Source: Silvanigrella paludirubra (lineage in GTDB: Bacteria > Bdellovibrionota_B > Oligoflexia > Silvanigrellales > Silvanigrellaceae). From it: a DNA stretch of 64,000 bases. The position numbers and the translations under genes are program-made. Position 1 is the first letter of the stretch, and the number at the start of each line of letters is the position of its first letter. The stretch is taken from assembly GCF_009208775.1 (NCBI RefSeq), contig NZ_WFLM01000009.1, positions 1 to 64,000 of the forward strand. Reading direction: 5' to 3'. A model generated the notes under the pieces. That model saw only the letters and a list, made by a program, of their open reading frames with translations, had not been told where the DNA came from and made no database searches. Shown here in pieces: positions 12,860-59,274 of this stretch.

Positions 12860-13654
12860 TTAGACTCCTTCTACTATATTGGACAACTCTTTATATGCTA
12901 CCGCAACGTTAGAATCAGGAGCGAATAAACCTACGGGAGTTTTTTGGCGCTGACTTTCAATTACTTTTACAGAGTCCGGAACTTTCACGGTTAGAAATTT
13001 TTCTTTGTACTCTTCTTCTAATTCATCGAGTAGAGCGCGTACAGCATTGGACCCGCCCTTTTGAAATGAAGTAACAAACACGCCTAGAAGTTGTAAATCG
13101 GGATTGTTACCACTTTCTTTTATCATCTGAGCAACTTCATGAATCGTGCGCATCCCTTTTTGTGAGTACACGCTTAAATCTGTAGGAACCAAATAATAAT
13201 CAGCCGCAACAAGAGCATTAATAGTTAGAACATTCATTAATGGAGATAAATCAATTAAAATATAATCAAAATTATCTTTTATTTTTGCAAGTATACTTTT
13301 TAAAATATGTTCTTTATTCAGTCGGCTGTGCAAGTGATCACTGATAGTTGCGAGTCTACAATCAGAAGGAAGTACAAGCGTATTTTGCCATGCTTCAATG
13401 GCTGGTTTAATTATTTCATCCAATTGAACCTTATTTTTAACATCTAAAAAAGCATCAAAAATAGTTTTAGTTTCCTCGTCTGTTACTTCACTCATACTCT
13501 TACCTAAAAGCATTTTGCTTGCATTTTCCTGTGAGTCTAAATCAACAACGAGCACGCTTTTACCAGAATTTCCAAGTTGGTACGCGAGTTCAATTATAGT
13601 TGTAGTCTTTCCTACACCGCCCTTTTCGTTCACGATTGCAATTGTTCTTGTCAT
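12860..13654 (-). CDS. parA: ParA-family partition ATPase (type Ib size)
   Basis: 264 aa. Deviant Walker A KGGVGKTTT (residues 11-19), Walker A' VLVVDLDSQEN (34-44), Walker B DYILIDLSP (about 131-139). No N-terminal helix-turn-helix, so it fits the short type Ib class. GGAGG lies before ATG 13654. It is in an operon with the RHH protein and would segregate the phage-plasmid over the nucleoid. Confidence 0.9.
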   Translation of the reverse strand: MTRTIAIVNEKGGVGKTTTIIELAYQLGNSGKSVLVVDLDSQENASKMLLGKSMSEVTDEETKTIFDAFLDVKNKVQLDEIIKPAIEAWQNTLVLPSDCRLATISDHLHSRLNKEHILKSILAKIKDNFDYILIDLSPLMNVLTINALVAADYYLVPTDLSVYSQKGMRTIHEVAQMIKESGNNPDLQLLGVFVTSFQKGGSNAVRALLDELEEEYKEKFLTVKVPDSVKVIESQRQKTPVGLFAPDSNVAVAYKELSNIVEGV

Positions 13655-31505: not shown

Positions 31506-31990
31506 TCAGTTACATCGAAACTTTTAAAGATTACTTATATGACTGGCTCATTGATTTTGGTGAAGTGCGCTTTGCAAATCAATCTGTAGGAATTCCAAAA
31601 TATCCTTTTATTATTTGCAATATTAAATCAATTAATAAAAAAGGATTAGATCAAGAAATTCTGAATTTAAAAGATGATGAAGTTTTAAGATATGGTTCTA
31701 GAGATTTTAATATCTCAATTGATATTTATGATAATGAAAATGGAAATGCTAATGAAATTGCACAAAATATAGCGGATTCTATAGATTCAAGAACTACAAG
31801 TTTATTTTTTAGAAAAATAAATTTTGTTTTAAATAGTGATGTTAAAATTATTGACTTAACAACTTTAATTAAAACAAAATTTGAACAAAGGTTTCATATT
31901 GATTTACTAGCTAAATATACTTCAAATATTAAAGAAAAAATTGAAACAATTGATTTAAACAAAATTAAAATAAAAGGAGAATTTAACTAA
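31502..31990 (+). CDS. Neck/tail terminator (gp12-like, LIC_12616-type)
   Basis: 162 aa. ISYIETFKDYLYDWLIDFG, then ANQSVGIPKYPFIICNI and the SRDFNISIDIYD strand fit the neck terminator family that caps the tail tube (recognised from memory). Its position directly before the sheath is as expected. Overlaps the sheath start by 1 nt. Confidence 0.7.
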   Translation: MISYIETFKDYLYDWLIDFGEVRFANQSVGIPKYPFIICNIKSINKKGLDQEILNLKDDEVLRYGSRDFNISIDIYDNENGNANEIAQNIADSIDSRTTSLFFRKINFVLNSDVKIIDLTTLIKTKFEQRFHIDLLAKYTSNIKEKIETIDLNKIKIKGEFN

Positions 31991-33081
31991 TGGTATCAGT
32001 TAGCAATGTAGTTGAGGTTAATTTATCTCGACAAACCGCTGTTCCTAAACAAGAAACGTTTAACGTTCCTCTTATATTAGGTTTTAATAATTTACCTGCT
32101 TTTAACGATAAACTCGCATTAGAATTTTATGACCCAAGTGAGTTACTTGATCCTAGTATTGGATTTATTTCAGCAAGTAAAGAATATTTGATGGCACAAC
32201 AGATTTTCATGCAAGAGCCATCAATTAAAAAATTTGTCGTTGGGAAAAGAAAAGTAAGCGTTGTAAATTCAACAGATGCTTCAAAATCTGTTTATAAAAT
32301 TACAGATGATATAGAAGAAATTATTAGAGCTAATAACAATTGGTATGCACTTTTTTTATCTGATTTTTCAGAAAAAGACGACTTGATGCCAGCTTGCAGA
32401 TGGATTGAAGCGAGTAAAAATAAAATTGCTTCTTTTAGATCTACTGATAAAACAATTTTAGATATTTCAAAAAATTCTGACATAGCAAATACTTTAGCAG
32501 CGGTTGGATTTAATCGATCAATATTGACTTATCACGCTACAAATAATGAATTTGTTGATGCTGCAATTTTAGGGAAGTTTTTATCAAAAGAAGCAGGAAC
32601 GTATTGTCTTGCGCATAAGAATCTAAATGGGATAACAAGTCAAAATATTTTGGATAGAGAATTTAAAGCAATTCAAGGAGCTTCTTGTAATGTTTATACG
32701 GATATTTTAAATACTCCCACATTTCAAGACGGTCGTGTATTAAATAAAGTCACTAATTTTATAGATAACACAATTGCAGAAGATTCTCTTAGAGCAAAGT
32801 TGCAGTCAAGAATTTTTGGGACACTTTCATTGGTAGACAAAGTTTCTTATGACAGTGACGGAATTTTAATAATTGAAAATCAAATAAGATCAGTATTAGA
32901 AGATTTTGAAAAGAAAAAAGCTATTCTTAAAGGTTGGGAAGTTCGGGTTCCGAAATTAGAAGAAATAATTAGAAAATATAAAGAAGACAGACAAAAAAGA
33001 GAATTAAATAACATTTGGTTTAATGCAACTATAAATGGAGCAATTCAAAAGGTTTCAGTAAATGGATTTATTTCTTACTAA
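31990..33081 (+). CDS. Contractile tail sheath (DUF3383 family)
   Basis: 363 aa. An N-terminal NVPLILGFNN strand, a central DNNWYALFLSDFSEKDDL-type domain and GTYCLAHKNLNGIT followed by a long C-terminal helix match DUF3383 sheath proteins. It establishes the phage as a myovirus. It precedes the tube gene by 22 bp. Confidence 0.85.
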   Translation: MVSVSNVVEVNLSRQTAVPKQETFNVPLILGFNNLPAFNDKLALEFYDPSELLDPSIGFISASKEYLMAQQIFMQEPSIKKFVVGKRKVSVVNSTDASKSVYKITDDIEEIIRANNNWYALFLSDFSEKDDLMPACRWIEASKNKIASFRSTDKTILDISKNSDIANTLAAVGFNRSILTYHATNNEFVDAAILGKFLSKEAGTYCLAHKNLNGITSQNILDREFKAIQGASCNVYTDILNTPTFQDGRVLNKVTNFIDNTIAEDSLRAKLQSRIFGTLSLVDKVSYDSDGILIIENQIRSVLEDFEKKKAILKGWEVRVPKLEEIIRKYKEDRQKRELNNIWFNATINGAIQKVSVNGFISY

Positions 33082-33102: not shown

Positions 33103-33561
33103 ATGGCAATAGCAACGTACTCTCCAAAAGATGTAAAAGTCATCATAGGTATTGCGCCTATGATTGGTTTTGCAGATGGTAGCTTTGTAGATATTGAATT
33201 TAATGAAGAGGCTTTTAAACCATTTACGGGTGCAGATGGTAATCATGCACGCACAAAAAATGCAAATGAAAGTGGTAAAATCACCATAAAATTAAGTCAA
33301 ACATCTCCATGCAATGATATTTTATCCGTAATTCACAACGTGGATAGAGAAACAGGAAATGGCATTGTTCCAATTATTATCAAAGATAATTATGGGACAA
33401 CTTTAGTTGTTGGAGCAGAATGTTATATCGAAAAATCTCCCAAAATTGGTTACGGAAAAGAAATTGAAGCAAGAGAATGGGTTTTTTATGTAGCTAAATT
33501 AAAAATGCATCTTGGTGGAAATAATGTTTATGGGCAACTTTATGATGGGGGTAATAAATAA
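33103..33561 (+). CDS. Tail tube protein (DUF3277 family)
   Basis: 152 aa. SPKDVKVIIGIAPMIGFADG, the N-H-x-R-T-K-N-x-N-E-S-G-KITI segment and LSQTSPCNDILSVI are characteristic of DUF3277 tube proteins that follow DUF3383 sheaths. GAAAGG precedes the ATG. Shares 1 nt with the chaperone gene. Confidence 0.85.
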   Translation: MAIATYSPKDVKVIIGIAPMIGFADGSFVDIEFNEEAFKPFTGADGNHARTKNANESGKITIKLSQTSPCNDILSVIHNVDRETGNGIVPIIIKDNYGTTLVVGAECYIEKSPKIGYGKEIEAREWVFYVAKLKMHLGGNNVYGQLYDGGNK

Positions 33562-34094
33562 TGAGTAAAGATTTAGGAAAAGACTTGTTTACAGTAATTG
33601 ACTTAGATGGGTACGAATATGTTTGTTACTTATGGAACTCTGACAAAGCTGCAAGATGGGTAAGGAGATGTCAAGAAATATTTTTTAAACCCATTGCTGC
33701 TACGATTGGAAAAAATATTTCAATTGAACAATTTTCTCCTGATGAGTTTGAATTAAAAAATATGCATTTAGATATCGAAAATGGTTTTAATTCATTTTTA
33801 AACTCTGTTGATGAAGTAAAATATGTTCAATATTTAAAAGAATTATTTGCTGGAGTTGCTTACAAAAATAATTCAATAAATTTTGAAATGCATTTTAGAG
33901 GGAAAATGCTCCATATGCACAAACTCGCATACAAAATTATGGAGTTTCAATTGGCGGATTTTTTCGACGCCGTGAGAGGCGGCGCATCCAAATTCCTCTC
34001 TCAGACATCGAACAAAAAATCCAAGGACTCGACGGAGGAGAAATTGAATGGGGAGTCTGGCGACTGGTCGCAGGAAGACTTGGAAACCCAGTAG
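33561..34094 (+). CDS. Tail assembly chaperone, unshifted form
   Basis: 177 aa. Opens with DLGKDLFTVIDLDGYEYVCY; the central part is helical with LHMHKLAYKIMEFQLADFF. It sits between tube and tape measure, the canonical place for the gpG/gpE chaperone. Codons after the slippery site are unusually GC-rich because a second frame is used there. It would bind the tape measure during tail assembly. Confidence 0.75.
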   Translation: MSKDLGKDLFTVIDLDGYEYVCYLWNSDKAARWVRRCQEIFFKPIAATIGKNISIEQFSPDEFELKNMHLDIENGFNSFLNSVDEVKYVQYLKELFAGVAYKNNSINFEMHFRGKMLHMHKLAYKIMEFQLADFFDAVRGGASKFLSQTSNKKSKDSTEEKLNGESGDWSQEDLETQ

Positions 34095-34204
34095 AAATTA
34101 AAAATCAATGGTCCCTATATGATGTTGCAAACGCCCATGATTATCTGGATTTAGAACAAGAGCGACAATATCTAATGAATGAATACATGAAGAGTAAAAA
34201 ATGA
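33561..34204 (+). CDS. Tail assembly chaperone, -1 frameshift product
   Basis: Residues 1-135 come from the gene at 33561. After a -1 shift at T TTT TTC (33959-33965), 79 further residues are read to TGA at 34202-34204, giving 214 aa. The new part begins RRRERRRIQIPLSDIEQ and contains WRLVAGRLGNPVE and NAHDYLDLEQE. It has no start codon of its own, ends across the tape-measure ATG (ATGA), and reads like a conserved chaperone C-terminus. Confidence 0.75.
33959..33965 (+). promoter_or_regulatory. -1 ribosomal slippery heptamer T TTT TTC
   Basis: Fits X XXY YYZ exactly in the zero frame (GAT TTT TTC). It is followed directly by a GC-rich CGCC-gtgaga-GGCG stem in an otherwise very AT-rich genome. 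Confidence 0.75.
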
Positions 34205-37200
34205 CTATAATTCAAGATTTGCAGATTAAAATTGATTTTGTTTTAAACGAAAAGCAATTAGAAAATCTTGAAAAAATACTCCACAATATTAAAGCAGACT
34301 CTTTAAGCTTAGGAAAAAGCCATGAAGAGATAAATAAAAAGCTAAAAGAAACTGCTAATATTTATGCTAAGGAAATCTTTAGTAAAAGAGAAAATCTAAG
34401 CTTAAATAAAAAACTAAGCGACTCGCAGCATAAATTTAATGAGACAATCAAACAAACAAATAAGCTTATATCGTCTAGTAAAGATTTAACCAAAGACCAA
34501 TTAAAGCAATTTCAATTTAAAGCTCCAGTAGCTCCAAGAGCTTCTCGACAAAAAAAAGAAGTTATAGTTGAAGAAGTTAAAAAGGTAATAGAAGAGAAAG
34601 TTCAGCCTAAAGTTGAAAAAAAAAGAAGAACTTTACCTGATGCTAAACTAAGGATTCAGGAGCTTGAAAATAATCTTTACAGCGGATTTTTGAATAAAAG
34701 CTATGGCGTAACTCCAGCTTTTCTAAAAAATATTGAAAACCAAAAACCTAAAGATAATTCATTAAAACTCAATTTAGGAAGCAATTTAAACAAAAATATT
34801 AATTCAGCCAATAATAGTGCAATGAATTTAAAATCAAATTTAAATTCATTGAATTCTGTTTTTTTAAATGCAACTAAAATTAAAGCTCCTCCGTCACAAA
34901 TTCCAATTCAAAATCCTGTACAAAATATTCCTATTGCTCCAAAAGTTCCCAATTTTGTATTAGAAAAAAATTCAGGAATTGTAAAAGATTTAAATTTAAA
35001 AATAAATTTTGATTTAAATGACCAGCAATTAAAAGCGTTAGAAAATACTATTCACAATATTAAATCTGAATCATTAGGCTTAGGGCACAGTCATGAAGCT
35101 ATTAATAAAAGTATTCAAAAAAATGCGAATTTATATGCAATAGCAACTTTAGAAGCTGACAATAAGTTAAATCAATTAAGTAATTCAGATTATGAGTTTG
35201 CAGAAGCTTTAAAACAATCCAATTTAGGAATGTACGAAGATATTAAATTAAAAAGCATACAAGCTAAAGAAGGAAGTAAAGTTTATCAAATAAATAACAA
35301 GCTCATCGAGTCACAAAAAAGATATAATGACTTGAAAAGACAAGGAGCAAATTTTACTTCATTTTCTGACTTCTTAAAAAAAGAGGCTCTTGTTGAAAAA
35401 CAAATTCAAGATCAGAATAATAAAAATTTATTGAAAAAAATTATTCTATATAAAGATTTATCTACTCAGGTTGCAACCACTGGAAATAGAATAGCTCAAT
35501 CTAATCAAACAATAAATAAGAGTTTATCTAGCGCAAATTATAGAATAAATAATTTTTCAGACAATCTAAGAAATTTTACTTCTCAATTAATGTTTGTAAA
35601 TCCTGCCACAATGTCTTTTGCATTTGCTTTGCAAGGCTTTGGGCAAATGTTTAAATCTCTTTCTGTTATTGCTCAAAATTCAACAGATATCGTTAAAAAA
35701 TCAATTGCAAGTTTGCAGCAAATTATTTTTGGATTGGGAGTTGCGGCTGCTGGAGCTGCTGGAAGTGTAGCTTATATTTCTCTATCAACCGCTAAATATG
35801 CTGAAGATATTAAAAAGAATTCTGAAATTATTGGTATGAGCGCAGACGAGTATCAGAGAATTTCATATGCTGCAAAAATTAGTGGAATAAATCAGCAAGA
35901 AATGGCGAGTTCTATGTCTGGCTTATTTCAAGCTCTAAAATCAAATAAAGATGGAACTCTTTCTGAAGTTCAAGAGAGATTTATAAATCTTGGCGTTGCA
36001 TTAAAAAAGTCCAACGGCGAAGCAAGAAATGTTTCAGAAATTCTTAGTGATGTAGCAGATAAATTTTCAAAAATAGATTCACCAGTAAAACGAGCTACTC
36101 TTGCGGCGGAATTATTTGGTGAAGGCGGTAGAAAAATGCTGCCATTTTTAAGCGAAGGTTCAGAAAAATTAAGACAACTAGGAATTGAAGCTGAATTGAC
36201 TGGAAATGTTTTGTCAGATGAGCAAGTAAGTAAATTAGTTATTTTGCAAAATAGTTATCGACGTTTAACTTCAATGTTGCATGGATTAAAACTTTCAATA
36301 GGCATGAGTTTAATTCCATTCATGAGCAATGTTATTCGTAGACTTTCGGATTGGTACGAAGCAAATGGCATGATTATTCGTCAAAATTTATCTGCATTTT
36401 TTAAAAATGTAGCTGATGGGCTTGGCCGATTCGCTCAATTAATAAGAAACACATATAACGTAATTACAGGGTTTGCAGAAAGCTTAAATAAGATAGGTAT
36501 TTCACTTTCATTTATTGCAAAAATATTACTGCTTTTTGGAAGCTGGAAATTATTCGGAATTATTGGAAATATTTTATTAGGTAAATCAGCTACGGGATTT
36601 TTTGGTTTTTTAGCTTCCAAATTTAAATGGCTTTATGCAGTTATTTCAGGGCTTTTCACAAGCATAGCAACTTTTGCAACAACTTTAATAACTGTTTTTG
36701 GTTCAAGTGGTTTAACTGGTGTTTTAATATTTTTAGGTGATGTAATTCTAGGAATATTGGCAGCAATATTTACTGTACCTGTTTTAGTTGGACTTGCTGT
36801 GGCTGGAATATTTTTATTAATTCAAGATTTTTTAACATGGATGGAAGGTGGAGATTCTTTATTTAAAAGAATATTTGGAGATTGGGAACCTGCAAAAAAG
36901 AAGATCGAAGAATTTACAGATAAAGTTAAATTATTTTTTAAAAATATGTGGCTCGATATTAAAAATTTTTTCATTGACAAATTTATTAATCCAATAAAAG
37001 AACATGGATTAGTTGGAATAGCAGAAGGATTTGTAAATCTTTTTCTAAAAATCTGTGAGATAGTATCAAAATTTACTTTATATTTATTAGATAAATTAAT
37101 TGACTTGGGTTCCTATTTATTTGATTTTATAGCGAATAGTGCACCAAAATTATTCAGTTACATTTGCGATAAAATAAAAGAAATATGGAACTTTTTAAAG

Positions 37201-37719
37201 CCATATCTAAAAACTTTTTTTAATTGGCTAATATATTCTACTCTTGATGGATTTAAATTTGTTGGCGATAAAATATTTAATGCATTTTCAAAAATTGTTG
37301 ATGATATTAAGAAAATATTTTTAGGCTTATTTGATTGGCTTGGTAGTAAATTAAATAAAGGTTGGGATGCTTTTAATAATTTTTTGGGACTAAGTAATCC
37401 TTTTGGATTATCAAAAGGGAATTCTTATGTGATTAAAGCAATTAGAGATGAGAATGCTAAACTAAAAATAATTGAAGAAAAAGAACCTAGTAATAAAAAC
37501 CTAGATAATTCTTTAGGGTTTTCTTCGGGAATACCAAGATTAAATAACAATATAAACAACACTAATAAAAATGTTAATTTTAATATTCAATCTCCTTTGA
37601 ATTTAAATGTATCTTCTAATTCAGATCCTCAAGAAATCGCTAGCATGGTTCAAAAAACATGGACTGAAAATTGGGAATATCAAATGCGAATTGCAAATGA
37701 TAATATTTATAGAGGTTAA
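34201..37719 (+). CDS. Tail tape measure protein
   Basis: 1172 aa, the longest gene, directly after the chaperone. Residues 1-90 and about 257-345 are an internal duplication (LQIKIDFVLNEKQLENLE / LNLKINFDLNDQQLKALE, each followed by a HNIK..SL.LG.SHE.IN segment). A long coiled-coil region follows, then a hydrophobic zone at about residues 770-880 (several membrane-like helices) that may form the injection channel. Sets tail length. Confidence 0.88.
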   Translation: MTIIQDLQIKIDFVLNEKQLENLEKILHNIKADSLSLGKSHEEINKKLKETANIYAKEIFSKRENLSLNKKLSDSQHKFNETIKQTNKLISSSKDLTKDQLKQFQFKAPVAPRASRQKKEVIVEEVKKVIEEKVQPKVEKKRRTLPDAKLRIQELENNLYSGFLNKSYGVTPAFLKNIENQKPKDNSLKLNLGSNLNKNINSANNSAMNLKSNLNSLNSVFLNATKIKAPPSQIPIQNPVQNIPIAPKVPNFVLEKNSGIVKDLNLKINFDLNDQQLKALENTIHNIKSESLGLGHSHEAINKSIQKNANLYAIATLEADNKLNQLSNSDYEFAEALKQSNLGMYEDIKLKSIQAKEGSKVYQINNKLIESQKRYNDLKRQGANFTSFSDFLKKEALVEKQIQDQNNKNLLKKIILYKDLSTQVATTGNRIAQSNQTINKSLSSANYRINNFSDNLRNFTSQLMFVNPATMSFAFALQGFGQMFKSLSVIAQNSTDIVKKSIASLQQIIFGLGVAAAGAAGSVAYISLSTAKYAEDIKKNSEIIGMSADEYQRISYAAKISGINQQEMASSMSGLFQALKSNKDGTLSEVQERFINLGVALKKSNGEARNVSEILSDVADKFSKIDSPVKRATLAAELFGEGGRKMLPFLSEGSEKLRQLGIEAELTGNVLSDEQVSKLVILQNSYRRLTSMLHGLKLSIGMSLIPFMSNVIRRLSDWYEANGMIIRQNLSAFFKNVADGLGRFAQLIRNTYNVITGFAESLNKIGISLSFIAKILLLFGSWKLFGIIGNILLGKSATGFFGFLASKFKWLYAVISGLFTSIATFATTLITVFGSSGLTGVLIFLGDVILGILAAIFTVPVLVGLAVAGIFLLIQDFLTWMEGGDSLFKRIFGDWEPAKKKIEEFTDKVKLFFKNMWLDIKNFFIDKFINPIKEHGLVGIAEGFVNLFLKICEIVSKFTLYLLDKLIDLGSYLFDFIANSAPKLFSYICDKIKEIWNFLKPYLKTFFNWLIYSTLDGFKFVGDKIFNAFSKIVDDIKKIFLGLFDWLGSKLNKGWDAFNNFLGLSNPFGLSKGNSYVIKAIRDENAKLKIIEEKEPSNKNLDNSLGFSSGIPRLNNNINNTNKNVNFNIQSPLNLNVSSNSDPQEIASMVQKTWTENWEYQMRIANDNIYRG

Positions 37720-38395: not shown

Positions 38396-39244
38396 ATGCA
38401 ACCAGCATTTAGTTATTATGGCGGCAAGTGCCGTATGGCAAAAGAGATTTTAAAATTGATACCCAATCACGTTACTTATGTAGAGCCGTTTTGTGGTTCT
38501 GCTGCGGTTCTATTTAAAAAAAATTACATAGAACCATCAAGTAAATATCAGGAGGTTATTAATGATAGAAATGGCTATTTAATTAATTTTTATCGTCAAT
38601 TAAGAAATAACGGTGAACAGTTAATTGAGAAACTTGAACAAACTCTTTATTCAAAAGCCGAACATGAGCTTGCTATTAAAATTGCTAAGAATATTGATCA
38701 GTATTCTGAACTTGAAAGAGCATGGAGTTTTTATGTAAATATCCAACAGTCATTTTCTAGTTCTTTAAATAAAGTTTGGAATATTTCCAGATGTTCAAAA
38801 AATATGTCATTCACTTGGGCAAATAAGTTAAAAAATTTAAGAGAAATTCATTCAAGGCTTTTAGAACTCACTATTGAAAATGAAGATGCAATTAAATGCA
38901 TTCAGAAATGGGATGATCATGGAGTCTTTTTTTATGTAGATCCTCCTTATATCAATACTGATTGCGGGCATTATAAAGGTTACACTGTAGAACAGTATAA
39001 AGAACTCATTTATACTTTAGATCACTGCAAAGGTTCTTTTATTTTGTCATCATATGAGAATGAATACTTGCCTAAAAAATGGAAAAAAGAATTTCATGAA
39101 TTGAAAGTCACATTTAATTCAAAAATAAAAGATAAGTCTCGGACAGAAGTTTTAAGCTTTGTAGATCGTTCTCGCTATATAAAAGATGAAAAAATCAAGG
39201 AAAGTTCTAAAAAATTTGGAGAGATATTAAGAGCTGCAAGTTAA
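38396..39244 (+). CDS. DNA adenine N6-methyltransferase (Dam/D12 class)
   Basis: 282 aa. FSYYGGKCRMAKEIL (residues 5-19) and YVEPFCGSAAVLF (SAM motif I) open the protein; FYVDPPYINTD near residue 180 is the catalytic DPPY motif. It would methylate phage or plasmid DNA, probably against host restriction. No partner endonuclease is adjacent. The gene is inserted between Dit and hub genes and is flanked by two direct copies of the late element, so it is a cassette. Confidence 0.9.
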   Translation: MQPAFSYYGGKCRMAKEILKLIPNHVTYVEPFCGSAAVLFKKNYIEPSSKYQEVINDRNGYLINFYRQLRNNGEQLIEKLEQTLYSKAEHELAIKIAKNIDQYSELERAWSFYVNIQQSFSSSLNKVWNISRCSKNMSFTWANKLKNLREIHSRLLELTIENEDAIKCIQKWDDHGVFFYVDPPYINTDCGHYKGYTVEQYKELIYTLDHCKGSFILSSYENEYLPKKWKKEFHELKVTFNSKIKDKSRTEVLSFVDRSRYIKDEKIKESSKKFGEILRAAS

Positions 39245-48212: not shown

Positions 48213-48497
48213 TTATTTCAGTAAAGATAGAAGATTATTTTTATCTTGTATTATATCTTTCTCTACAATAGAGATATCAACCGCACTTGCTCCTTCAATT
48301 CTATTCTCTTTCGCAAGCATATCCAATGCATAATTCATAAGCCAAATAGCTCGATCCGCCTGAGACTTTTGACCTCTAGGAAAGTTAATTTTTGAGCTAT
48401 TAAAAGAAGTTTTAGCATTCTTAATAAAGTTTAAAACATCTGTATTCTCTTCCGAGTCAGGCAACCGCATTTGATAAAACTTTTTTTCGTCACTCAT
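48213..48497 (-). CDS. parR: ParR-like centromere-binding protein
   Basis: 94 aa. KKFYQMRLPDSEENTDVL gives the beta strand and start of a ribbon-helix-helix; the second helix pair is QADRAIWLMNYALDML. Size, RHH fold and ATGA overlap with the actin-like gene fit a ParR adaptor of type II partition. Confidence 0.75.
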   Translation of the reverse strand: MSDEKKFYQMRLPDSEENTDVLNFIKNAKTSFNSSKINFPRGQKSQADRAIWLMNYALDMLAKENRIEGASAVDISIVEKDIIQDKNNLLSLLK

Positions 48498-49492
48498 ACT
48501 ATGGACACCTTTACGCTAGAGTTTCCAATATCTATTGATACATGTTTGTATGATGATTTTAACTTAGACAAACCAGCAACAACGCTAAAAGTTGGATCTA
48601 AGTCTTCAACAAGTTCGGTCATTAGAATAATGTTATAACCGTTACCTTTAGCGATTTCCTTAAGTACAGACATAAATACATGATCTTTTGCTGCACCACC
48701 ACTGACAACAATATTTTTTGCTCTATCTTTATAACGGGCATTTTTATTTAAAAGTTCTCCAATAACTGAACGGATAAATTGTCTGGCAGCAGTTTCTTTT
48801 TCCTTCAAACAATCAATTCTTTTTCCATTCATACCGGATTTTTCTGGCATGTTACCTAATTGCCATGAGTTTATTGCTTCACTTGATGATAAATTTTGTT
48901 GGTCAGAAAAAACCTGAATTGCTCCTGCTAAACCTTCAACGCGTGCGTAAGAATCTGGTAAATTCTTTCCATCAACTCTACTTGCTTGTTGCCAGTCACC
49001 GTGCCCGATGTGCCAATATAAAAAAGTTTTTGCGTCAAGTGGAATGTTGAGCATAGAAGCTAGGAATTCATATGCAATAGTTGGTTCTTCCTGAATAATG
49101 ATTTCGCAATTTTTCCAATTTGAATCAGTGGATTTATCCTTGAACCTAATATTTGCTACTGTTTCCTTAAGCAAAGCAAGTTTATTTCTTGCAAGGGTAT
49201 TATCACCTACCTGATCACGAAACTGATCCATAAACTGAAAAGGGACGCTCATGGCTAATGAAATTACGTGTGTCCCTTCTCCCAAAGCTCTTGCAAGTCC
49301 TGCTTTTAATAATGTTTGGTAATGATCTGACTCTAAAGTTCCACCAAATATTCTTGGGCTATGAGGATTTAAAGTTTGCGCCAGATCGCCTACAACCGTT
49401 TCAATTCCCTTATCATCAATTAAAATTGATTGTTTATTTAGCAACTCTTTTTCTTTGGGGGCAGAACAAATAAAACTTGGTAGAAATTCCAT
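48494..49492 (-). CDS. parM: ParM-like actin ATPase, apparently circularly permuted
   Basis: 332 aa from ATG 49492 (GAGGAA upstream). Actin-family motifs appear in the order connect-1 QEEPTIAYEF (134-143), phosphate-2 WHIGHGDW (160-167, Asp replaced by His), adenosine IVVSGGAAKD (261-270) and terminal helix DPTFSVVAGL (299-308). Phosphate-1 IDIGNSSVK (320-328) is last. In normal ParM the phosphate-1 loop is at the N-terminus. The N-terminus here (FLPSFICSAPKE) corresponds to the strand that normally follows it. Operon with parR. Confidence 0.8.
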   Translation of the reverse strand: MEFLPSFICSAPKEKELLNKQSILIDDKGIETVVGDLAQTLNPHSPRIFGGTLESDHYQTLLKAGLARALGEGTHVISLAMSVPFQFMDQFRDQVGDNTLARNKLALLKETVANIRFKDKSTDSNWKNCEIIIQEEPTIAYEFLASMLNIPLDAKTFLYWHIGHGDWQQASRVDGKNLPDSYARVEGLAGAIQVFSDQQNLSSSEAINSWQLGNMPEKSGMNGKRIDCLKEKETAARQFIRSVIGELLNKNARYKDRAKNIVVSGGAAKDHVFMSVLKEIAKGNGYNIILMTELVEDLDPTFSVVAGLSKLKSSYKHVSIDIGNSSVKVSIV

Positions 49493-49863
49493 TAGATAGT
49501 TCCTCATATTTTAAAGCATAAATATTTTAGCTTTAAAGGGTGAATTCTGTTTATTGCATAATTAAAATACATATAAAACATAAAATTCACTTCCTTATCA
49601 CACAAATAAAATTTATTGCATAAATAACATTTGTTTATTTATGCAAATGCAATGTAACGGAAATTTTTAGAGAGGGGAAGTGAACTAATATAAAAATTTT
49701 AATTTTTATAACATATTAATTTGACAAATTAGAAAACAAGATGAGTATATCTAATGATTTAAATAATTTTTATAATTGGAGGATTTATATTATATGATGA
49801 AATACTAGAAGAGAAATAAATTTAATCTTTTTAATTAAATAATATTAAAATAGGAAATATATA
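49493..49863. promoter_or_regulatory. Candidate parC centromere and promoter region
   Basis: Gene-free 371 bp between parM and 49864. Two copies of TTTATTGCATAA (near 49549 and 49613), a perfect 12-bp inverted repeat TTGCATAAATAA (49616-49627) / TTATTTATGCAA (49635-49646), and opposed AATTCACTTCC / GGGGAAGTGAAC segments. Upstream repeats of this type are where ParR binds and nucleates filaments. Confidence 0.6.
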
Positions 49864-57939: not shown

Positions 57940-59274
57940 ATGACTACTCAAAATTGTTGTGATCTTTCAAAATCCAAAACCAGAAAAACATATAAAAATA
58001 AACTAATTTTAAAACCAATGCGGGAAGGTTACACTCACAATCACGCAAAAAATGAAGCTTACAATGGTGGTAGATCTTTAAGGGCAATTTGGACAAATCC
58101 AAATATCACTTCAACTCAAAGTTTAGTTTTATTATGTATTTCTTCACATTTGGATTTTAAAAAAGATTTTAAATCTTGGATAAAAATTTCAATCTCTCAA
58201 ATTGCTTCCGAAACTAAATTAGGCGTAAGAACAGTCCATAAAATCATTTCCGAATTAATAAAATTGGAATATTTAAATAAGCAAAGAAATTTTTCCCAAA
58301 AAACTTTTTTACAAGAGGAAAGTAGTTTTTGCTTAACTAATAAGCTTTTTGATGAGCATGTAAATTATTTACAAAAAAGTTTAGTTCCTACCTCGAATCA
58401 CAATGAGCATGTAAAAGAGTACAAATTTCAAAAATCTCTAAAAAGTAGCAATAAAAAAATTTTACAGTCCGCAACTCCTGCAAAGCAAGTCCGCACACCT
58501 TACACATCTAATATGCACGACATGCAAAGTAAGGTTGTACGAGATGCAGACATTTTCCCCTTAGATCTTTCCTCTTTAAAACTTTCCCCTCAAAATTCTC
58601 CAATGTGTGAAGAAAAAATTTCACACACAATTGAAAATCCTATTGCTTATAAAAGTAACAACTCAGAATTAAAGCAAGTGGGAATTATAATTTGCGAATT
58701 ACTTAAGCAAAAGCAAAAAAGGAAGTTTATCCCAAATATGGAATGCGAAAGCTTAATAGCTAAAGCTAAGCTTCACCTAGATCTTAACAACTGTGATCAA
58801 TTTTTATCTTTCGCTAAAGCTGCCATAGCTAATGAGCATTACAACAATTTAAATAACTCTAAGAATATCGAAAGTATTTTCATTAATGAAGTAAAAAGTT
58901 TTATTGATAACAAAGAATATATTGCTTCTTTTAAAGCTAAAGAGATTACCGAATGCAAAAAAGAATCAATCGAGCAAATAGCAAATCGTTTTAAAGCACC
59001 TGTGGAGCAATTTTTAGGACAGGCCTTAACCAGTGTTCATGCAAAACAAAATGAGCCTTTAAAAGCTAAAGAAACACGTCAATCAAGTTTAACTGATGGC
59101 TTAAGCGATTCTGCTTTAGCTTGGTACAAAAATTTAGATAGAGCAAATAAAATCATTGTTCAAAAAGAAATCAAAAAGCATGGTCCCGCAAAATTTTCAT
59201 CTTTAATTCTTCCAAGCATCAAATCTTATAAAAATTTCGTTACAAGCTTTAAATTTGAAGCGAGGGCAGCATGA
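57940..59274 (+). CDS. Replication protein with N-terminal winged helix (phage O-like)
   Basis: 444 aa. Residues 50-110 form a helix-turn-helix (SISQIASETKLGVRTVHKIISELIKLEYLNKQ) preceded by TSTQSLVLLCISSHLDF, as in phage replication initiators of the lambda O type and plasmid Rep proteins. The middle is a low-complexity linker; the C-terminus (SALAWYKNLDRANKIIVQKE) is helical. Preceded by inverted repeats that may be origin or control elements. Confidence 0.7.
   Translation: MTTQNCCDLSKSKTRKTYKNKLILKPMREGYTHNHAKNEAYNGGRSLRAIWTNPNITSTQSLVLLCISSHLDFKKDFKSWIKISISQIASETKLGVRTVHKIISELIKLEYLNKQRNFSQKTFLQEESSFCLTNKLFDEHVNYLQKSLVPTSNHNEHVKEYKFQKSLKSSNKKILQSATPAKQVRTPYTSNMHDMQSKVVRDADIFPLDLSSLKLSPQNSPMCEEKISHTIENPIAYKSNNSELKQVGIIICELLKQKQKRKFIPNMECESLIAKAKLHLDLNNCDQFLSFAKAAIANEHYNNLNNSKNIESIFINEVKSFIDNKEYIASFKAKEITECKKESIEQIANRFKAPVEQFLGQALTSVHAKQNEPLKAKETRQSSLTDGLSDSALAWYKNLDRANKIIVQKEIKKHGPAKFSSLILPSIKSYKNFVTSFKFEARAA

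Follow-up and report, generated by a model that had tools for sequence, protein, structure and literature searches.

The stretch of DNA analysed here, referred to as the window, comprises 64,000 nt from Silvanigrella paludirubra (GCF_009208775.1, NZ_WFLM01000009.1, positions 1-64,000, forward strand). Within it, a gene for a tail assembly chaperone (TAC) is flanked by the sheath and tube genes on one side and by the tape-measure gene on the other (Table 1). The zero frame of the chaperone gene terminates with TAG at 34094. GAT TTT TTC at 33957-33965 lies in the reading frame of the chaperone, so that the heptamer T TTT TTC follows the canonical X XXY YYZ pattern. An open -1 frame spans 33899-34204; the 79 codons after the heptamer occupy 33965-34201, and the TGA at 34202-34204 overlaps the tape-measure ATG at 34201. 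Residues 1-135 of the chaperone together with the 79 aa of the extension would form a predicted fusion, TAC-NC, of 214 aa. An initial annotation of this DNA had located the zero-frame stop, the heptamer, the 79 open codons and the end across the tape-measure ATG at these same positions, all of which were found to be correct. It had also described the -1 frame as having no start, in agreement with the finding that the first ATG, GTG or TTG of this frame occurs only at codon 72 after the site.

Table 1. Features of the tail chaperone locus and its neighbours, with positions in the window.
Feature	Positions	Strand	Basis
Tail sheath protein (DUF3383)	31990..33081	+	Pfam 1.5e-19, PHROG tail sheath 1e-56
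Tail tube protein (KPP10_Orf10 type)	33103..33561	+	Pfam 5e-12, PHROG 5e-45
Tail assembly chaperone, zero-frame product TAC-N (177 aa)	33561..34094	+	Phage_TAC_15 PF21822, PHROG families
Slippery heptamer T TTT TTC, proposed -1 shift site	33959..33965	+	Sequence; identical in L004, L005
-1 frame C-terminal extension, 79 codons + TGA	33965..34204	+	Open frame, homologues, dN/dS <1, phrog_4364/DUF6889-like
Dual-coded stretch, GC 0.535	33966..34094	+	Composition
Predicted hairpin right after heptamer (33968-33973 with 33979-33984)	33968..33984	+	Fold prediction
Alternative stem GAGAGG (33974-33979)/CCTCTC (33995-34000), 8-nt spacer	33974..34000	+	Sequence, alignment
Tail tape-measure protein; ATG overlaps -1-frame TGA (ATGA)	34201..37719	+	PHROG tail length tape measure, 4e-44

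The zero-frame product is a member of Pfam Phage_TAC_15 (PF21822), scoring 54.9 bits against a curated cut-off of 22, and it matches two PHROG tail assembly chaperone families. Seven of the eight chaperone records tested passed Phage_TAC_15, the exception being that of an Exiguobacterium phage. The gene at the chaperone position of Exiguobacterium phage vB_EauM-23 (L010:5743-6200) has a longer continuation in the +1 (or -2) frame and carries GGGAAAG 9 nt before its zero-frame stop; Phage_TAC_15 was not matched. A structural model of the chaperone (pLDDT 63) gave fold matches to tail chaperones, including a 212-aa entry of phage Moogle, and a model of the extension (pLDDT 71) gave only weak fold matches, to small uncharacterised phage proteins. 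A sequence search against solved structures returned no match.

The extension scores 17.4 bits (E 0.004) against DUF6889 (PF21829), below the curated cut-off of 23.9, and its match to phrog_4364 is weak in the window (4e-4) and stronger in a relative (2e-6). Both matches of the window extension fall at the NAHDYLDLEQE motif. The extension of phage PAK_P2, a relative of Pseudomonas phage Adele, unlike these falls in phrog_4625. The -1 position, taken with the family matches, indicates that phrog_4364/DUF6889 and phrog_4625 would represent the -1 C-terminal part of a tail chaperone. In annotations these families of "unknown function" frequently appear as small hypothetical proteins of their own between TAC and tape measure, which annotators should join to the chaperone. 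The literature searched held no paper naming DUF6889, PF21829, PF21822 or phrog_4364.

Two genomes of the same GTDB genus, G004 (TAC identity 61%) and G005 (51%), carry the module; one of them is Spirobacillus cienkowskii (Silvanigrellales). At their loci, L004 and L005, GATTTTTTCGA is kept exactly, and the -1 frame likewise ends on the tape-measure start. Identity of the extension to that of the window is 58% for L004 and 43% for L005. The number of zero-frame sense codons after the heptamer was observed to be 42 in the window, 33 in L004 and 21 in L005. RRRERRR of the -1 peptide is retained without change in L005, whereas the zero frame changes there from DAVRGGA to EGARGAA, indicative of a stronger constraint on the -1 product at this place. 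Some conservation of the zero-frame tail persists in the nearest relative, which counts against a frameshift. Over the single-coded part of the -1 frame, identity between the window and L004 by -1 codon position is 0.71/0.94/0.54; dN is 0.20 and dS is saturated. When the extension is taken as a whole, codon position 2 is the most conserved in all other pairs too. As judged from these substitution patterns, with only two close relatives found, purifying selection acts on the -1 frame.

Searching phage sequences by tblastn with the chaperone and with the extension gave no match, and relatives were therefore reached via the sheath protein. Scanning genome contigs with a single sequence gave no match, and with an alignment as query it returned Spirobacillus only; scans of viral contigs with the ctsHD2 and BUCT696 chaperones also gave no match. 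L023 (TAC identity 24%, TTTTTTA) and L051 (SEN34-like, TTTTTTT) are two distant viral contigs in which a -1-frame stop stands directly before the heptamer, so that the -1 frame opens exactly there; this confines the shift to the heptamer or to a point before the zero-frame stop, which follows after 8 codons in L023 and 15 codons in L051. T TTT TTN was found near the 3' end in 12 of the 21 TAC loci inspected, which are not independent samples, and the remaining loci have A AAT TTT, G GGA AAT, C CCT TTT, G GGA AAG or GGTTTTT-type sites. Past the zero-frame stop, the -1 frame continues towards the tape measure in 20 of the 21, window included; the one locus that departs from this is that of the Exiguobacterium phage. 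The initial annotation had judged the -1 frame to look conserved, and had stated that an absence of its homologues from related phages would speak against a shift; homologues were found in the two same-genus relatives and in distant myophages, with the T6N site kept.

The conserved -1 frame and site, the selection and the membership of Phage_TAC_15 all support the earlier proposal of a -1 frameshift in the tail chaperone at T TTT TTC. Ribosomal frameshifting in the -1 direction on this heptamer very probably gives two proteins, both predicted from the DNA: TAC-N of 177 aa and TAC-NC of 214 aa. Most ribosomes would read to the TAG at 34094 and produce TAC-N, and a minority would slip back by one base on T TTT TTC, re-pair there and go on in the -1 frame to produce TAC-NC. 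By analogy with lambda gpG/gpGT, the common N-part may coat the tape-measure protein and the extension may recruit tail-tube subunits. We infer the ribosomal nature of the shift, how efficient it is and what each product does.

The same fusion could arise without ribosomal slipping if RNA polymerase slipped on the T6 run and produced mixed mRNAs. The site is indeed a homopolymer run of six T, but six T is short for productive polymerase slippage. Moreover, the T run preserves its codon register, T TTT TTN, and other relatives have mixed heptamers (A AAT TTT, G GGA AAG, C CCT TTT) at the same place; both features suit tRNA re-pairing rather than polymerase slippage, which is considered very unlikely. 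Another explanation treats the -1 frame as a separate small gene, with its own non-canonical start or coupled with the upstream gene, as annotators imply by calling a separate small ORF here in many related phages. However, ATG, GTG and TTG were sought in the extensions of L004, L005 and L051 and none was found, and the window has one only near the C-terminus. A Shine-Dalgarno-like motif near the site, common to the loci, was also looked for and not found. The small ORF annotated in PAK_P2 starts only after the WEI stretch that is conserved in the -1 frame. A separate gene is likewise considered very unlikely.

The least credible explanation, with almost no probability, is that the -1 frame is a chance or decayed gene that is not expressed. 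Long alternative frames do occur at other gene ends in the window, mostly because the next gene lies there, and slippery heptamers taken together are frequent in DNA this rich in AT (410 in the 17,921 codons of the genes predicted in the window). In-frame T TTT TTC occurs only twice in the same codons. The chaperone gene itself holds other heptamers, so that the presence of a heptamer alone proves little and the comparative evidence is what counts. Against a chance frame stand the conserved -1 protein, its codon-position pattern and the phrog_4364 match of the relative. In simulations that held the zero-frame protein and the window codon usage, the -1 frame stayed open over the dual-coded stretch in 0.15% of cases and over the further 36 -1 codons in 5%, giving a joint chance of about 8e-5 for the open frame in the window alone. 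Ribosomal frameshifting on T TTT TTC is the preferred reading of the locus.

The initial annotation had also reported a sharp rise in GC content and a GC-rich stem after the site. The dual-coded stretch is the most GC-rich 129-bp stretch in the window (0.535, where the window as a whole has 0.282), and four relatives show the rise as well. The increase was confirmed, but its proposed cause was not: in the window it probably owes most to the Arg codons that encode RRRERRR and to the hairpin, and is not simply due to two overlapping frames. As for the stem, the hairpin at 33968-33984 is real as a predicted fold, with a fold z of about -2 over the first 30 nt in the window, L004 and L005, but it lacks statistical support: the one compensatory pair (C-G to G-C in L005), in an alignment of three sequences only, was equalled in 175 of 500 shuffles. 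It is predicted to start 1-3 nt after the heptamer, closer than the usual spacer of 5-9 nt between a heptamer and its stimulatory structure. The alternative stem GAGAGG/CCTCTC is kept in the alignment, which is uninformative since the bases are dual-coded, and it is mutually exclusive with the hairpin. Inspection of the loci for a conserved Shine-Dalgarno stimulator upstream found none, and an Rfam search gave no match. A role of the predicted GC-rich hairpin in frameshifting is unproven. It is conceivable, though doubtful, that the GC- and Arg-codon-rich segment after the heptamer is an unusual stimulator that sets the TAC-N:TAC-NC ratio and doubles as a basic patch of the chaperone; the hairpin would then possibly be swapped for the GAGAGG/CCTCTC stem while the ribosome sits on the site.

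The contig carrying the module is 67,601 bases long. Beside terminase, RecT and virion genes, it has genes for a ParA-type ATPase (12860-13654, - strand), a product with a weak actin-like match (48494-49507, - strand) and one with a weak HTH_36 match (57940-59274, + strand). Two other genomes have related modules, carried by contigs of 62,907 and 63,363 bases that cover about 58% of the window in translated comparison. These elements look like a putative family of phage-plasmids in Silvanigrellales. In addition, a gene for a D12-class adenine methyltransferase (38396-39244, + strand) lies inside the tail/baseplate run, just after a Dit-like gene.

How does this locus compare with known tail-chaperone frameshifts? 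Those of lambda G/GT and P2 E/E' are textbook cases (review PMC5009743), and the review bears out the earlier remark that both use a -1 shift at the equivalent position. Position, two-product logic and -1 direction are as proposed for the window, a comparison that leaves the sequences aside. Lambda's heptamer differs from T TTT TTC. Like a lambda G/GT-type locus, the window has a chaperone between the major tail protein and the tape measure, a conserved X XXY YYZ site near the 3' end, and a -1 extension that lacks a start of its own and is under selection. Three myophages of the DUF3383 type, namely Klebsiella phage Mulock, Burkholderia phage Magia and Salmonella phage SEN34, have their genes in the same order as the window, from tube through TAC and -1 extension to tape measure, and the SEN34 chaperone, like that of the window, passes Phage_TAC_15. 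The slip site is T TTT TTG in Mulock and SEN34 and another heptamer in Magia, and the Mulock and Magia records are annotated 'tape measure chaperone frameshift product'. The extension of this type resembles that of the window weakly (profile comparison E 2.8e-6, 23% identity over 43 columns), and the hosts differ. The phage Moogle chaperone was stated by its authors to be frameshifted (PMC4319497). For chaperones of Vandenendeviridae and Andersonviridae, including that of Pseudomonas phage Adele, -1 frameshifting has been argued at length, with a -1 extension between TAC and tape measure that is routinely misannotated as a hypothetical protein (PMC12846349); their slip motif is GTTTTT, in contrast to TTTTTTC in the window. 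No report of a tail-chaperone frameshift in phage-like elements of Silvanigrellales or Spirobacillus relatives was found in the literature searched. The locus leaves the understanding of frameshifting unchanged and adds a Silvanigrellales instance of the known tail-chaperone frameshift. The slip context GCG GAT TTT TTC recurs as in the window in Rosemountvirus vB_EcoM_SD350 (L057:555-1146), whose -1 peptide is recognisably similar to that of the window and whose extension is unannotated in its record.
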